Of a stretch of DNA of 64,000 nucleotides, positions 10,722 to 39,182 are shown piece by piece (position 1 is the stretch's first letter; each line of letters begins with the position of its first letter). The notes beneath the pieces were generated by a model that was not told the origin of the DNA, did no database searches, and saw only the letters and a list, made by a program, of their open reading frames with translations. The stretch spans positions 5,998,322 to 6,062,321 of the forward strand of contig NZ_CP036273.1 of assembly GCF_007747215.1 (NCBI RefSeq), written 5' to 3'. Source of the DNA: Urbifossiella limnaea (lineage in GTDB: Bacteria > Planctomycetota > Planctomycetia > Gemmatales > Gemmataceae). A program made the translations under genes and the position numbers.

Positions 10722-13151
10722 TTACCGCACCTCCGGCAGCAGCGCCGGCACCCGCGGCACCACCGACCCCGCCGCCGGCGCCAGCCGCACGCCGGTTGCC
10801 GGCTCGGTGCCGAGCCGCGGCTCGCGCGCCAGCCGGTCGAACTGGAACGTCCGCGAGCCGCCCGCGTCCCACGTCAGTGTGAACGCCTGCGCCCCGGACC
10901 GCACCGGCAACTCCGCCCGCAGCGCGTCGCCGGGGCGATAGGTGAACGGCGGCGCGGCGCCGAAGGTGTACGCTGTCGTGAGGTCGCGCGGCACCGGCTC
11001 GCCGACCGGCGCGAACGTCCGCACCACCGGCTCGCCGCCGGCCCGCGGCGTCACCGTAACCGTCAACGGGCCGGCGGGCACCAGCGGCGGGTTCCGCAGC
11101 ACCAGCGGGATGGTGAGCTCCGCGCCGCGCAGGTCGAACGCGAACTCGGGCGCCCGCAGGAACGCCGCCAGCCCCGCGACTGGGTCGCCTGCGGCGCGCT
11201 CCTCCAGCTTCGCCAGCACGTGCAACAATCGGCCCCACTCCGCGAACGGCGGCGCCGACAAGCCCTCGGCGGCACGCGCCCAACCGGCCGGCGTGTCGTC
11301 GCCGTTCAGCCGCGCCGCCACGAGGGTGCGAACCGCCGCGGCGCCGCTGGCGAACGACTCGCGCACGCGGCCCGCCAGCACCGACCGCGCCGGGTCGGGG
11401 AAGCCGCTCAGCTCCCACTCGGGGTAGCCGCTCACGTCCGCGGGGTAGAGTTCGCCGCCGCGCGGGAAGCGCGTCCGCAGCTCGGCCAGTTGGCCGGCGG
11501 GGAACGCGGTCGCGTCGAGGCCGCTGCCCGGCGGCGGGATGAGCAGCGGGCGGCGCTCGGCGCTCGGCGTGAGGGCGAGGGCGTCGGCCAGGTCGCGGAG
11601 GTGGAGCAGCCGGCCGCGGGCGTACTCCCAGTCGCGGCGGGCCTGGTACACGCGGTCGTACTCGAACGGCACCCGGTACGTCACCGCGTCGCGCCCCGGC
11701 AGTGCCTCGCTCCCGGGCAGCGGCGACCCCAGCGCGAACGGCGGCTGCGTGCCGGCGTCCGCCAGCCGGTTCACGCGGTCGCGCCAGTCGCCGGCGAACG
11801 AACCGGTCAGCGTCAGCGCCGTCGCCTGGTTCAGGAGGCCGCGGTACCAGTCGTGCCACGCGGCCTCCGCGCCGCGGATGCTCGCCGCGTCGGCGAGCCA
11901 CTTGTCGCGCAGCCTCGCCGCCTCGGTGTCGCCCCAGGTGTACTCCGCGGGCAGGGCCAGCTCGCCGGCCAGCTTCGCGCGGACGCGTTCCAGTTCGTCC
12001 AGCGTCCGCGCCTCGGACGGGGCCGGCTGCGCGGCCAGCTTCGCCCGGTACGCCTGGTAGTCGTCCACCTCGCGCAGCCGGCCCTCGACGAAGGCTTGCA
12101 GGTCGGCCGGCAGCGCGAAGAAGCCGGGGTCGGCGCGGTACGACGCGAGGAGCCGCTTGTTCCGCGTCGCGGTCGGCTCGGCGAGCCGGACCGCCGCCGC
12201 GGGCTCGCCGCGGGCGTACAGCTTCACCCGCTCGGGCAGCTGCGGGTCGGCCGTCGCCGGCGCGAACACCGTGACCGCGACGGCACCCGCGAGCAGCGCC
12301 AGCACGCCGGCCGCGACCGCCCACACGGTGTGCCGCAGGCGCGTGTCGGACGCGCGGGCGCGGGTCCGGTGCGCGGCGGCGGCGCGGAAGGCGTCGTGGA
12401 ACAGCTCGGCGACGCCGAACGGCTCGGCCTCGGGCTTCGGGGCGTCGGCCAGCGGCGGGCGGCGGACGGCGGTGGCGTAGTCCTCCACGTCCACGCTGCC
12501 GAACGGCAGGGACGACGAGCCGTGCCCCTCGAACGGCAGCTGGTCGTCCACGAACTCCTCGAACTGCCGCCGCACCTTGGCCAGGTGCCAGCGCACCTCG
12601 GCCTCCCACGTCGCGGTGGTGTCGCCGGGCTTCGCCAGCAGGTCGCAGCGTGTGAGCACGACGAACACCGGCAGCCCGCCGACCTCGCGGTCGCGCAGCC
12701 GCCGGCCGTGGACCTGTTCGAGGAAGAACAGGAAGTCCTCGAACCGCTCCGCCCGGTCGTCGTCGTTCAGGGTGGCGTCGATGACGAGCACGAGCAGGTC
12801 GGAGCCGAGTACGGCCCGCGCCACGGTGCCGGTGACGCGGCGGGCCTCGAGCGCGTCGGCGGCCTTGAGCAGCGCCGTGGACGCCCGGCCGTCACAGTCG
12901 ATCAGCACGAAGTCGGTGGGCTCGGGGGTGCGGTACTGGACGCGGAAGGTGTTGACCTCGGTGCCCGCGGCCTTGAGGTTGCCGTCGGCGTAGACGGCGG
13001 CGCGGACCGGTTCGAGGTGGCCGGTGAGGTCGGCGACGGTGCCGCCGAGCGCGGCGGGCTGGGCGTCGGAGGCGCGGAGGAGGGCGCCGAGGAGGTGCGT
13101 CTTCCCGGACCCGGGGTGGCCGAACAGGAGGATTTGCGGCGGCGCGAGCAT
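10722..13151 (-). CDS. Membrane-anchored P-loop GTPase-like protein
   Basis: 809 residues from the ATG at 13151. An N-terminal GTPase-like domain has Walker A GHPGSGKT (11-18), a DCDG switch-II-like motif (85-88) and a TRCD base-recognition motif (167-170, in place of NKxD). One membrane helix follows at about 275-297. The remaining ~500 residues are helical then beta-rich near the C-terminus, probably on the outer side of the membrane, and I do not recognise them. It is the last gene after an ExbB-like, an ExbD-like and an unknown membrane gene on the same strand. The layout suggests a nucleotide-switched envelope complex. The domain order does not match TssM/IcmF. Confidence 0.75.
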   Translation of the reverse strand: MLAPPQILLFGHPGSGKTHLLGALLRASDAQPAALGGTVADLTGHLEPVRAAVYADGNLKAAGTEVNTFRVQYRTPEPTDFVLIDCDGRASTALLKAADALEARRVTGTVARAVLGSDLLVLVIDATLNDDDRAERFEDFLFFLEQVHGRRLRDREVGGLPVFVVLTRCDLLAKPGDTTATWEAEVRWHLAKVRRQFEEFVDDQLPFEGHGSSSLPFGSVDVEDYATAVRRPPLADAPKPEAEPFGVAELFHDAFRAAAAHRTRARASDTRLRHTVWAVAAGVLALLAGAVAVTVFAPATADPQLPERVKLYARGEPAAAVRLAEPTATRNKRLLASYRADPGFFALPADLQAFVEGRLREVDDYQAYRAKLAAQPAPSEARTLDELERVRAKLAGELALPAEYTWGDTEAARLRDKWLADAASIRGAEAAWHDWYRGLLNQATALTLTGSFAGDWRDRVNRLADAGTQPPFALGSPLPGSEALPGRDAVTYRVPFEYDRVYQARRDWEYARGRLLHLRDLADALALTPSAERRPLLIPPPGSGLDATAFPAGQLAELRTRFPRGGELYPADVSGYPEWELSGFPDPARSVLAGRVRESFASGAAAVRTLVAARLNGDDTPAGWARAAEGLSAPPFAEWGRLLHVLAKLEERAAGDPVAGLAAFLRAPEFAFDLRGAELTIPLVLRNPPLVPAGPLTVTVTPRAGGEPVVRTFAPVGEPVPRDLTTAYTFGAAPPFTYRPGDALRAELPVRSGAQAFTLTWDAGGSRTFQFDRLAREPRLGTEPATGVRLAPAAGSVVPRVPALLPEVR

Positions 13152-35190: not shown

Positions 35191-36255
35191 CTACGGCGCC
35201 GGCCCGTCGAGCCAGTCCGGCAGGCGGGCCAGCACGTGGTGCCACGTCGCCGGGGTGAACTCGTTCGAGTGGTACGGCACGTACACCCAGACGAACAGCG
35301 TGTCGCCGCCGCCCCGGTACGAGTACCCGGACCGCTCCGCCGCCTGCTGAATCGTCAGGTCCCACACCTCGGTCAGGTTCGACGTGAACACCCGCTTCGC
35401 GTCCGGCCGGCCGAGCGTCCCCTTGTAGAACTTCTCGTCGAACCGGGCGAACCGCACCATCGGCGGGAACGGGTGGTCCTTGTTCTTGACCCGCAGCTGA
35501 ATCTCCTTCAACTCGTCGTCGAAGCCGTGGGCCGGCTTCTTCGGGTTCTCCGGGGCCACGCGGTCCTCGGGGCCGCCGCCGAGGAAGTCCTGGAGCGGCC
35601 GCGAGAAGTACCGCCCCGGCGGCTTCACCTTCCACAGCCACACGTGGTCGTGCGTGTCGGGGTGGTTCTCGACCAGGTACTCGTGGACCGCAGCGAACGC
35701 GTACGACGGCTGCCCCAGCGGCTTCGACAGGCCGGTGCCCAGGAAGTCCGGCTTGATGCCGAGCTTCCGGTCGAGCAGTTTCTGCACCGCTGGGTAGCTC
35801 ATGTACACGTCGGCGACGGCCTGGTCGCGGCGGAGGGCGCCGCCCTCGGCGTCGGCGCCCTCGACGCCGGGCGGCCGCAACCGCAGCGCCCGCACGACCG
35901 TCTCGTCGGTCACCTCGCCGGCCGTCATGACGGAGTGGACCTGGTCGCGCCACGCCCGCCACTCGGCCGACTGCACGGTCTCGGTGCGCGGCGGGGCGTC
36001 GTGCCACCCGGGCGGCGCGGCGTGCGACAGCGCCTCGTACTGGTAGGCGAGGCTGGCCAGAAGCAGGCCGAGGAAGCCGCCGGCCGCGGCGGTGCCGAGC
36101 CACCGGCGGGCGTGGGCCACGGCACCGACCGGCGCGGCAGCGGCGGCGGCCCGCCGGGCGGCGCGGAGAGTGTACGCGGCCGCGACCGCCGCGCAGACCG
36201 CGGTGGTCGCAGCGGTGAGCACCATCCCGGCGTACGCGAGGCGGTCGTGACTCAA
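35191..36255 (-). CDS. Membrane-anchored protein of unknown function
   Basis: 354 residues from a TTG supported by a GGAGG site five bases upstream; an ATG ten codons on is an alternative. Two hydrophobic segments (about 8-30 and 52-70) are followed by a ~280-residue soluble region, probably outside. It has aromatic-rich segments including HDHVWLWKVKPPGRYF and a C-terminal FVWVYVPYHSNEFTPATWHHVL stretch. I do not recognise a family. It follows the FGE-like fragment by 24 bp and the RyR gene further upstream, so the three may be one transcript. Confidence 0.72.
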   Translation of the reverse strand: MSHDRLAYAGMVLTAATTAVCAAVAAAYTLRAARRAAAAAAPVGAVAHARRWLGTAAAGGFLGLLLASLAYQYEALSHAAPPGWHDAPPRTETVQSAEWRAWRDQVHSVMTAGEVTDETVVRALRLRPPGVEGADAEGGALRRDQAVADVYMSYPAVQKLLDRKLGIKPDFLGTGLSKPLGQPSYAFAAVHEYLVENHPDTHDHVWLWKVKPPGRYFSRPLQDFLGGGPEDRVAPENPKKPAHGFDDELKEIQLRVKNKDHPFPPMVRFARFDEKFYKGTLGRPDAKRVFTSNLTEVWDLTIQQAAERSGYSYRGGGDTLFVWVYVPYHSNEFTPATWHHVLARLPDWLDGPAP

Positions 36256-36279: not shown

Positions 36280-36789
36280 CTACGGGAATGTTCTCGCCAC
36301 CCGGAACCCGTAGTACAAGCCCTGCATCGTCGGCACGTCGTCGTGGCGGCGGGCGGCCCGCAGGCTGATGGCCATGAAGTAGAACGCCCCGCCGCGGAGG
36401 ACTCGCTTGGCCGAGGGGTCCACGGCCGGCTCCGGCCCGTCGGCCCCGACCCGGTCCGTCCGCTCGTGGCACCACGTGAAGGCGTTCCCCTGCATGTCGA
36501 ACAGGCCGAAGTCGTTCGGCTTGCGGGTGCCGACCGGGTGCGTCGCCTCGTCCGAGTTCCGCTGGTCGCCCGAGTTCTTCTCGTACCACGCGTACTCGCC
36601 GAGCAGCTCCTCCGTCTCGCCGTAGTACCGGCACGTCCGGGTGCCGGCCCGGTTGGCGTACTCCACTTCGGCGTCCGTCGGCAGCCGGTACCCGCTCAGC
36701 GAGGCACGAACGCCCCGTGAATCCTCCCCTCGACCGGAACGATCGTTGACACAATAGTCCGGGTACGGCCAACGCTCTACGGCCGGCAC
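36280..36789 (-). pseudogene. N-terminally truncated formylglycine-generating-enzyme-like (SUMF1/FGE) fragment
   Basis: The 169-residue frame holds only the C-terminal two-thirds of an FGE-sulfatase domain. It starts with GYRLPTDAEVEYANRAGT, where the usual Trp of AEWEYA is Val, and continues through KPNDFGLFDMQGNAFTWC and RVLRGGAFYF to YYGFRVART. The family's N-terminal part with the F.MG strand is absent. The ~30 residues before the match are unlike FGE, and an RyR gene ends only 10 bp upstream. A rearrangement that deleted the 5' half is the simplest reading. It could still make a short product from the GTG at 36789. True FGE oxidises sulfatase cysteines; many bacterial relatives are only binding domains. 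Confidence 0.65.
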
Positions 36790-36799
36790 CTGCGACGGA

Positions 36800-37096
36800 T
36801 CAGCCCGCGGGCGCCGGCGGCGTGATCGTGTACCCCAGGGCCAGCAGCGCGCGCAGCGCCCCGAGCGCCGTCTGCCGGTCGAACTCTTTCTCCGATTCGG
36901 ACAACTCCGCGTACGGCACCAGACTCGGGTGCGTCTTCGCCACGTCGTCGCGGGCCGGGCCGTACCTCCACCCCTGGGCCAACCGGCCGAGGGCCCACAC
37001 GTCGTGCGCGTGCGCGGCCAGACGCTCCGTGAGCGCCAGCACGTCCGGCGTCAGCGCCACCGCCGAGGTGTCGAGGGGGCGCGGGGTGTAGGTCAT
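36800..37096 (-). CDS. Stand-alone RyR (ryanodine receptor-type) domain protein
   Basis: 98 residues from the ATG at 37096, consisting of a single RyR domain. Matches to the family are PRPLDTSAVAL at 6-16, LAAHAHDVWALGRLAQGW at 26-43, YGPARDDVAKTHPSLVPY at 45-62 and LSESEKEFDRQTALGALRALLALGY through 89. No membrane segment, so not a channel. In animals the domain occurs as repeats in ryanodine receptors. In bacteria, RyR domains occur as small proteins and have been linked to nucleotide-based signalling and conflict loci. It is divergent from the TPR-SLOG-cyclase gene (133 bp apart), suggesting a shared control region. Confidence 0.88.
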   Translation of the reverse strand: MTYTPRPLDTSAVALTPDVLALTERLAAHAHDVWALGRLAQGWRYGPARDDVAKTHPSLVPYAELSESEKEFDRQTALGALRALLALGYTITPPAPAG

Positions 37097-37229
37097 GAGT
37101 CGGCTGTCGGTGGGGGTCGGGTCGGAATCGCCTGCTTCGAGGATACCCCCGCCGCTGGGCGGCCGAAGCCGAAAACGCGATGATTGCCCCGCCGGCCGCG
37201 TTCGCTGCCGCCCTCGCGGAGCCGCCGCC

Positions 37230-39182
37230 ATGACGCCCGACGAACTCCTCGGCGCGGCCGCGTCGGGGTCGATCCTCGAACAGTTCGCCGTCGCGCACCC
37301 CGACCGCTTCCCGGCCGCGTGGGACGCCGACCCGGCCGGCCCGCGGCTGTACCGGGCGTTCGCGGCCCGGCTCATCGCCCGCGGCCACCCGGCCCAGGGG
37401 CTCGGCCTCGCCGGCCGCGGCGTCGCCGCCTACCCCGGCGACGCCGAGCTCCGCTACCTCGTCGCCCTCGGCTTCGCCCGCGGCGGCAAAGCCCGCTCGG
37501 CCGGGCACGCCCTCGACCCGCTGCTCCGCGAACGGCTCGCCGGCCCGCCCGGTCTCGACCGCCTCAGCGCCGACGTGGTCGCCCTCCGGGGCCGGCTGCT
37601 GAAGGACCGCTACCGCCGCGACCCCGACCCAGCGCTCGCGGCCGAGAGCACCGGCTGGTACGAGGCCGCCGCCGCCCGCGCGCCCGACCCGACGTACCCG
37701 CTGGTGAACGCCGCGACCATGCGCCGCCTCGCGGGCGATCTCGCCGCCGCGCGCCGCCACGCCGCCGCCGTGCTCGCCGCCGTCCGCTTGACGGCCGACG
37801 ACTACTGGGCGCTGGCCACCGCCGGCGAGGCGGAGTTGGTGGCCGGCAACCTGGACGCCGCCGGCGCCCACTTCGACGCCGCCGTCGGCCGGATGATCAT
37901 CACCGAGGACTACGGCTCGCTGGCGGCGCTGATCGGCAACCTGCGGCTGCTCGCCGCGGCCGGCGTCGGCGGCGAACTCGACTGGATCCACGCCCGCCTG
38001 GGCAGCGTCGTCGTCTACTCCGGCCACCGCATCGACCCGCCCGGCGCCGCGGTCCGCTTCCCCGACGACCCCGCCCTCGTCGGGCGCGTCCGCGCCGCGG
38101 TCCGCGCCGAGCTGGCGGCGATGAACGCGCGGTTCGCGTTCGGGTCGCTGGCCGGCGGGGCCGACGTGCTGTTCGCGGAAGAACTCCTGAACCGCGGCGC
38201 CGACCTGCAAGTGGTTCTGCCGTGCGCCGCCGACGACTTCCGCCGCACGAGCGTGGACTACGACCGCCCCGAACTGCGGCACTGGGCCGACCGCGCGGCC
38301 GCTGTGCTCGGGCGACTACGGCCGGACCAGATCCACCACGCGACGGAAGAGCCGTACCTCGGCTCGGGGCAGCTGTTCGCGTACACGAACGAGGTGATCC
38401 AGGGCATGGCCCTGGTCCGGGCGGCACAGTTCGGCTTCCCGCCCGAGGCGGTCGTGGTGCTGGACCCGGCCGCCACGCCGAACGAGGGCGGAACGCGGCA
38501 CTTCCGCGACGTGTGGACGGCGGCCGGCCGGCCGTGCCGCACCATCGACCTGGAGGCCGTTCGCGGGTTCGCGGCGGCCCGATCCGGCCGGTCGGGCGAC
38601 GGCCGGGAGCCGCCGCCGGCCTCCCTGCCCCGCCCGATCCGGGCCATGCTGTTCGCCGACGTGGCCGCCTTCAGCCGGATGCGCGAGGAGTTCGCGCCGG
38701 CGTTCTTCACGCGGTTCTCCGACCTGCTCGCCGCCGCGCTGGCGGCCGCCGGCCCCGCGGCGCTCATGGCCAACACGTGGGGCGACGGCTTCTTCGCCGT
38801 CTTCCCCGGGGCGGTGGAGGCGGCCGAATTCGCGACCGATCTGCTGGCGCGGTTCGAGGCGGCGGCTGCCGACTGGCAGGCGGTCGGCTTCCCGGATCCG
38901 AACCCGCTGCGGGTGGGGCTGCACGTCGGGCCGGTGTTCGAGCGGGCCGACAACCCGGTGCTGAAGGGGCGGAACGTGTTCGGCCGGCACGTCAACCGCG
39001 CCGCCCGGATCGAGCCGGTGACGACGCCGGGCTGCGTCTACGCCAGCGAGCAGTGCGCGGCCCAGCTGGCGGTCCGCGACCCGGGCCGGTTCGCGTGCGA
39101 CTTCGTCGGCGTGGAGCAGTTGCCGAAGGGCGGCGGCCCGCTGCCGCTGTTCCGGGTGTCGCCCGCGGCGTCGCGTGGTTAG
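37230..39182 (+). CDS. TPR/TRAFs-binding-like + SLOG-like + class III nucleotide cyclase protein
   Basis: 650 residues from ATG 37230 (an ATG at 37095 is possible but adds low-complexity sequence). Residues about 50-245 are helical TPR-like repeats resembling the MAP3K TRAFs-binding/TPR-sensor type (LRGRLLKDRYRRD..., YPLVNAATMRRLAGD, DYWALATAGEAELVAGN). Residues about 258-440 look like a SLOG/LOG-type Rossmann fold: SGHRIDPPG, FGSLAGGADVLFAEELLNRG, VVLPC. Residues 470-645 are a class III cyclase with metal Asp477 and Asp519 and transition-state Asn589 and Arg593. The two purine-selecting positions, normally Lys and Asp, are Asn515 and Asn582. A cytoplasmic sensor-signal enzyme is the likely role. 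Confidence 0.85.
   Translation: MTPDELLGAAASGSILEQFAVAHPDRFPAAWDADPAGPRLYRAFAARLIARGHPAQGLGLAGRGVAAYPGDAELRYLVALGFARGGKARSAGHALDPLLRERLAGPPGLDRLSADVVALRGRLLKDRYRRDPDPALAAESTGWYEAAAARAPDPTYPLVNAATMRRLAGDLAAARRHAAAVLAAVRLTADDYWALATAGEAELVAGNLDAAGAHFDAAVGRMIITEDYGSLAALIGNLRLLAAAGVGGELDWIHARLGSVVVYSGHRIDPPGAAVRFPDDPALVGRVRAAVRAELAAMNARFAFGSLAGGADVLFAEELLNRGADLQVVLPCAADDFRRTSVDYDRPELRHWADRAAAVLGRLRPDQIHHATEEPYLGSGQLFAYTNEVIQGMALVRAAQFGFPPEAVVVLDPAATPNEGGTRHFRDVWTAAGRPCRTIDLEAVRGFAAARSGRSGDGREPPPASLPRPIRAMLFADVAAFSRMREEFAPAFFTRFSDLLAAALAAAGPAALMANTWGDGFFAVFPGAVEAAEFATDLLARFEAAAADWQAVGFPDPNPLRVGLHVGPVFERADNPVLKGRNVFGRHVNRAARIEPVTTPGCVYASEQCAAQLAVRDPGRFACDFVGVEQLPKGGGPLPLFRVSPAASRG

Follow-up and report, generated by a model that had tools for sequence, protein, structure and literature searches.

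A stretch of 64,000 nucleotides from Urbifossiella limnaea (NCBI RefSeq assembly GCF_007747215.1, contig NZ_CP036273.1, positions 5,998,322 to 6,062,321 of the forward strand), referred to here as the window, encodes a stand-alone RyR-domain protein and, divergently from it, a protein in which a TPR-S region, a predicted SLOG domain and a class III nucleotidyl cyclase domain are joined in one chain. Among planctomycete genomes, RyR genes were found beside or fused to TPR-S genes far more often than expected by chance, and the evidence that RyR and TPR-S form a functional module is much stronger than that for the full mechanism proposed below. Each of the domain families is already known; the RyR/TPR-S module, with its interchangeable nucleotide-making outputs, appears to be new. 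The pair consists of the following features.

36800..37096, minus strand: RyR-domain gene, 98 aa, with Pfam PF02026 (RyR, E 4.8e-33) at residues 3-92
37097..37229, no strand: divergent intergenic region of 133 bp, the distance between the two start codons
37137..37201, no strand: 65-bp element, presumed shared promoter/operator, with 88% identity to positions 10787-10851 of a larger operon in the same genome (L029)
37230..39182, plus strand: TPR-S - SLOG - class III cyclase gene, 650 aa
37230..37964, plus strand: TPR-S / ASK1-type TPR region, residues 1-245, with PF20308 at residues 69-164
38001..38567, plus strand: YpsA-like SLOG domain, residues 258-446, assigned from fold model m8beb94dccca5
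38625..39164, plus strand: class III nucleotidyl cyclase domain, residues 466-645, assigned from PF00211 and fold

The original prediction, made from the letters of the window, had described a divergent RyR gene 133 bp from the gene for the fused chain, and the gene starts confirmed this arrangement. Its domain limits of 50-245, 258-440 and 470-645 were also near those found here. Longer in-frame starts are possible for both genes, and the starts chosen are favored by the domain edges and by the N-termini of homologues. Neither protein had a match in NCBIfam or PADLOC.

Linkage was assessed mainly in 298 genomes of the planctomycete class, where RyR was carried by 25 genomes, TPR-S by 29 and the TPR-S-SLOG-cyclase chain by 14. 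Ten of the 13 strong RyR loci were fused to TPR-S or lay no more than 2.5 kb from it, compared to 0.017 expected, and TPR-S was present at E <= 1e-6 in 12 of the 13 strong-RyR genomes (co-occurrence p = 8e-13). The cyclase chain was the partner of RyR in U. limnaea and in genomes G181, G291 and G245. Genome G152 encodes all four parts as a single RyR-TPR-S-SLOG-cyclase chain, with RyR N-terminal to TPR-S (Pfam RyR 1e-32, TPR-S 3e-16, cyclase 8e-10), G291 carries a degenerate single-chain RyR-cyclase fusion, and G137 a weaker TPR-S-RyR fusion in which RyR is C-terminal. The original prediction had expected RyR among the neighbours of the cyclase homologues, and these fusions are among the cases found.

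The other partners of RyR were TPR-S proteins of different build: TCAD9-TPR-S (G130), DUF4145-TPR-S (G106 and G204), a TPR-S protein of 360 aa (G254) and, in G156, a NUDIX-RelA/SpoT-TPR-S protein with a weak SLOG match. Matches to the cyclase profile adjoining RyR at loci L077, L078, L080 and L081 were rejected as cyclases, since Pfam identified them as TPR-S proteins, and this shifts the RyR link from the cyclase to TPR-S. The diversity of these partners indicated that RyR tracks TPR-S and that the messenger-making output is interchangeable. At the cyclase loci of the class, RyR was nearby or fused in 6 of 19 cases. These are dispersed across the cyclase tree (6 changes, of which no fewer than 4 are forced), so RyR is a recurrent but optional companion of the cyclase. 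The proposed RyR-cyclase pairing thus stood as a recurrent association beyond chance, with the correction that it is facultative and that RyR follows TPR-S rather than the cyclase. At L083 (3949-6710), the NUDIX-RelA/SpoT-TPR-S gene shares a 4-bp overlap with a RyR gene; its SLOG match is to the prokaryotic TRPM type, and an alarmone synthetase takes the place of the cyclase.

The same genome has a larger operon, L029, at 1.00-1.02 Mb. On its minus strand are genes for NUDIX, NUDIX-TCAD9, TPR-S and RyR proteins, the last cut short near an insertion sequence (IS), and on the divergent side are a LysR gene, a gene for a 1347-aa protein, a paralogue of the cyclase chain and a gene for a DUF4062 protein. 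The RyR stump has 82% DNA identity to the window RyR gene, and the LysR/NUDIX intergenic region (10787-10851) matched window positions 37137-37201 with 87.7% identity over 65 bp (blastn, E 5e-17). Because both the stump and the intergenic DNA match, the window pair is best read as a condensed copy of the larger operon, with the RyR gene, the cyclase-chain gene and the promoter region retained. The shared intergenic motif was looked for in the other operons and was not found there; its confinement to the two U. limnaea loci makes it a sign of common descent rather than a general operator. Homologues of LysR, NUDIX, TCAD9 or TPR-S recur in differing subsets in G130, G137, G245, G152, G126 and G254. 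At L037 (8214-12601, in G126) the genes for a TPR-S-SLOG-cyclase chain and a TCAD9-TPR-S protein point away from each other, accompanied by LysR and NUDIX genes, and the RyR gene of G126 lies elsewhere, adjoining a second NUDIX-like gene. By inspection, one NUDIX copy in U. limnaea has an intact Nudix box, GGHVEGGESIRECCVREVEEELGL. A coherent breakdown route would result if RyR converted cyclic ADP-ribose (cADPR) to ADP-ribose (ADPR) and NUDIX then split ADPR into AMP and ribose phosphate.

The RyR protein scored 113.7 bits against PF02026, compared to a curated cut-off of 27.4. RyDEP of phage DyoEdafos, a member of the same Pfam family, binds and cleaves 2'/3'cADPR by H75 and D117, while its W78 stacks on the adenine and its H100 lies at the phosphates (PMC13232231). 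Alignment placed H31, W34, H56 and D73 of the window RyR at RyDEP H75, W78, H100 and D117 with identical spacing; overall identity was 38% over 69 residues, and all four residues were kept in every other strong RyR aligned. RyDEP is a phage anti-defence protein found beside NAD-rebuilding genes, whereas the window RyR is chromosomal and is linked in operons with TPR-S, SLOG, cyclase and NUDIX. The RyR protein had been put forward as a possible binder or effector. Its conserved residues point to binding or cleavage of (c)ADPR and not to an effector role, and its 98 residues hold this single domain and no effector part. Of the two activities, cleavage of cADPR is possible but not certain.

The N-terminal region of the 650-aa protein matched TPR-S (PF20308) with E 9.6e-10 and 39.4 bits, above the cut-off of 27.6, at residues 69-164. 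TPR-S is kin to the TPR region of ASK1, and a 2020 paper is said to have defined TPR-S and predicted NAD-derived ligands for it. Compared with PDB structures, the full model resembled the central regulatory region of ASK1 most closely (5ulm, Z 20.2, 238 residues in the range 2-325), which makes the earlier label of a TRAFs-binding-like TPR region apt. TPR-S conflict systems and the metazoan ASK signalosome share this family and fold, and the chain described here differs from them in that a YpsA-like SLOG domain and a class III cyclase replace the kinase, and in its RyR partner.

For the middle domain, a Pfam search with 18 homologous domains gave no SLOG model over its cut-off and a single YAcAr hint (E 0.12), and a profile search of PDB sequences gave chance matches only. 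Residues 258-446 were also folded alone, together with three Arenicella homologues (pLDDT 82, pTM 0.83), and compared with Foldseek's top chains. The matches were to YpsA (2nx2, Z 17.3, Foldseek E 2.8e-6), DprA (Z 12.1), ShosA (Z 11.7), the ADP-ribose-bound N-terminal region of the TRPM2 chanzyme (Z ~10) and LOG (Z 8.6). Among these chains SLOG proteins ranked above all others, and most unrelated folds scored near Z 5. The predicted fold thus bore out the proposal that the middle region is SLOG-like. By inspection, the LOG catalytic motif PGGxGTxxE is replaced by NEGGTRHFRD, and a binding role for the domain is therefore more likely than base release. The domain had been called a nucleotide handler; with a YpsA-like fold and no LOG motif, nucleotide sensor fits better. 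Sensors of cADPR such as ThsA belong among the YpsA-like SLOG domains (PMC9503650, PMC11204291).

The assignment of a class III cyclase was upheld by PF00211 (E 5.8e-7, residues 473-614), by a fold match to Ma1120 (Z ~16.8) and by both metal-binding aspartates. D477, D519 and R593 were kept in 22 of 22 homologues, and the transition-state position N589 was N in 12, S in 9 and T in 1. The base-specifying positions, N515 and N582, form neither the adenylyl K/D nor the guanylyl E/C pair, and asparagine occupied them in 18 and 12 of the 22 homologues, respectively. The chain paralogue in the same genome is 86% identical, and the ratio of nonsynonymous to synonymous substitution (dN/dS) between the two copies was 0.28 overall, with 0.40 for the TPR region, 0.23 for SLOG and 0.11 for the cyclase. 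Between these copies the cyclase is the most constrained domain and the sensor part changes fastest. Such purifying selection on the cyclase domain is what would be expected of a working enzyme. Pycsar is similar in its class III cyclase, its presumed signalling role and its non-K/D base-specifying residues. The present chain differs from Pycsar in its fusion to TPR-S and SLOG and in that it had no PADLOC match, no PycC among its PDB sequence matches, and no partner found that would serve as receptor or effector of a cyclic nucleotide monophosphate (cNMP).

One further feature lies close to the pair.

36280..36789, minus strand: FGE-sulfatase (FGS) domain, C-terminal fragment (PF03781 9.8e-23, profile positions 105-255 only)

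The fragment begins 10 bp past the RyR gene on the same strand and has 42% identity to the FGS domain of a 1713-aa protein encoded downstream of RyR in G291. Its membership in the system is uncertain, and it may be what is left of a larger conflict operon. The same strand encodes a 354-aa protein with a hydrophobic N-terminus (35191-36255), which had no match in Pfam or PADLOC. The scanned neighbours in the window, among them succinyl-CoA ligase, GT87 and kinase-TPR genes, do not form a defence island.

RyR genes were also seen in other settings. At L030 (3366-5449), near 4.59 Mb of C1 in the same genome, three consecutive genes encode a ThsB-type TIR protein, a membrane protein of 388 aa and a RyR protein of 118 aa that keeps all four RyDEP residues, which makes this a Thoeris-like locus that has a RyR of its own. 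DUF4062-VMAP-C and MoxR-type AAA genes follow RyR in G291, and a TIR-STAND gene adjoins tandem RyR in G065. Channel-like membrane proteins with TrkA_N (RCK) and a C-terminal RyR are encoded at L078 (10567-12603), L091 (4395-6254), L101 (1498-3207) and L100 (5196-7667), and one of these fusions adjoins a TIR gene. Proteins of ~870 aa with tandem C-terminal RyR repeats lie beside 'VTGHR' proteins at L086 (1207-8694), L088 (4288-8896) and L092 (3171-10661); some of the latter have SLATT-type matches, two of the three weakly match the TPR-S-SLOG-cyclase profile, and TIR-type genes are also present at L086 and L092. In G374, of the gammaproteobacterial class, a strong stand-alone RyR (L099, 6216-6497) stands amid metabolic genes with no obvious TPR-S neighbour.

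Taken as a whole, the reading that we tentatively favor, and would rate slightly short of even, is that an NAD-derived ligand acts on the cyclase through the SLOG and TPR-S parts and is erased or sponged up by RyR. Stress or an invader would give rise to an ADP-ribose-type ligand (a cADPR isomer, ADPR or a relative), probably made by a TIR-type enzyme encoded elsewhere in the genome. This ligand would be bound in the 650-aa protein by the YpsA-like SLOG domain, by the ASK1-like TPR-S scaffold or by both, and would turn on the C-terminal cyclase, which would produce a cNMP. RyR would bind the same ligand and probably cleave cADPR isomers to ADPR, and would thereby set the threshold and turn the system off; in the full operon, the NUDIX proteins could destroy ADPR and the LysR regulator would control the divergent promoter. 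The computation itself establishes the domains with their intact key residues, the repeated linkage and fusion of RyR and TPR-S, the purifying selection on the cyclase and the kinship of the window pair with the larger operon; the ligand, the direction of control, RyR's enzyme activity, the cNMP product, the action of the regulator and any part in phage defence are what we infer. A more general form, in which a TPR-S and SLOG receptor gates a messenger synthase (the cyclase, or the RelA/SpoT-like enzyme at the related locus) and a host RyR glycosidase is the built-in signal eraser, is possible but on the doubtful side. The scheme resembles Thoeris in that a SLOG domain is the likely receptor of a cADPR-type ligand and gates an enzyme in the same chain; it differs in its output, a cyclase and not SIR2, and in the presence of RyR.

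Several observations weigh against the eraser scheme. Among the scanned neighbours in the window, neither a TIR nor any other enzyme that makes ADPR turned up. SIR2 was not among them either, a further difference from Thoeris with its adjacent ThsB TIR and ThsA SIR2-SLOG genes. RyR accompanies TPR-S even where SLOG or cyclase is lacking, so the ligand may be that of TPR-S, with the cyclase downstream in some other way. In the planctomycete class, 13 of the 19 cyclase loci had no RyR nearby, and none was found in three Arenicella genomes that carry the cyclase; RyR occurs in just 3 of 369 genomes of Arenicella's class, so generality outside the planctomycete class is weak. With N515 and N582 in place of K/D, the base of the cNMP product is not readable from sequence. 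We are aware of no chromosomal bacterial RyR of this sort that has been assayed. None of the other phage RyDEP relatives assayed cleaved cADPR and most bound it (PMC13232231), so hydrolysis by the window RyR may likewise be absent.

The pair might instead serve ordinary physiological signalling rather than immunity, with the cyclase answering the metabolic NAD/ADPR state and RyR acting as a housekeeping binder. This would agree with the lack of a defence island around the pair and of a PADLOC model for either protein. We nonetheless consider it unlikely, given the patchy distribution of the chain and of RyR over the 298 genomes, the duplication and IS damage of the U. limnaea copies, and the ThsB-type TIR, TIR-STAND, VMAP-C/MoxR and DUF4062 genes that adjoin related RyR loci. 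A role in defence, perhaps against phages, is suggested by this company.

Phage RyR proteins that mostly bind without cleaving, and fusions that place RyR at either end of TPR-S (G152 and G137), would also suit a RyR that is a co-sensor and no enzyme, capturing an NAD-derived ligand and presenting it to or sharing it with TPR-S/SLOG, in cis in the fusions. The retention of the catalytic H/D pair in all strong RyRs and the NUDIX enzymes able to consume ADPR that adjoin several loci argue against this. A purely sensory RyR is thus unlikely, although it and the cNMP-receptor role considered next stand as the chief competitors of the eraser scheme.

In line with the possible binder or effector named in the original prediction, RyR could be the receptor or effector side, binding the cNMP product of the cyclase and carrying the response; the adjoining genes and the adenine nucleotides bound by RyR pockets (RyR3, RyDEP) are consistent with such a role. 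We regard it as improbable, because RyR is linked to TPR-S proteins without a cyclase (at L029 and in G130, G106, G204, G254 and G137), which indicates that its partner is not the cyclase product, and because a single domain whose residues fit a cADPR pocket has no part with which to act. That the two genes are functionally unlinked chance neighbours, as their divergent orientation and the lack of RyR near most cyclase homologues might suggest, is very improbable in view of the linkage at 10 of 13 loci, the fusions, and the retention of both genes with the same intergenic element from the larger operon.

No publication pairing RyR with TPR-S was found in the literature searched, a search that left the key 2015 and 2020 SLOG/TPR-S papers outside it. 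It was not until 2026, and in phages, that RyR domains were connected with cleavage of cADPR. The chromosomal RyRs described here travel and fuse with a SLOG domain and the ASK1-like scaffold TPR-S. With two proteins it thereby becomes possible to ask what TPR-S binds, what RyR domains do in bacteria and, a question of long standing, how cADPR and the ryanodine receptor are related. If the eraser scheme is true, a relay that passes an NAD-derived signal on as a cNMP, with interchangeable synthases, would link two classes of nucleotide signalling that have been treated separately. It would also give bacterial RyR a host function and bring RyR, cADPR-type ligands and ASK1-type scaffolds together in one prokaryotic system.
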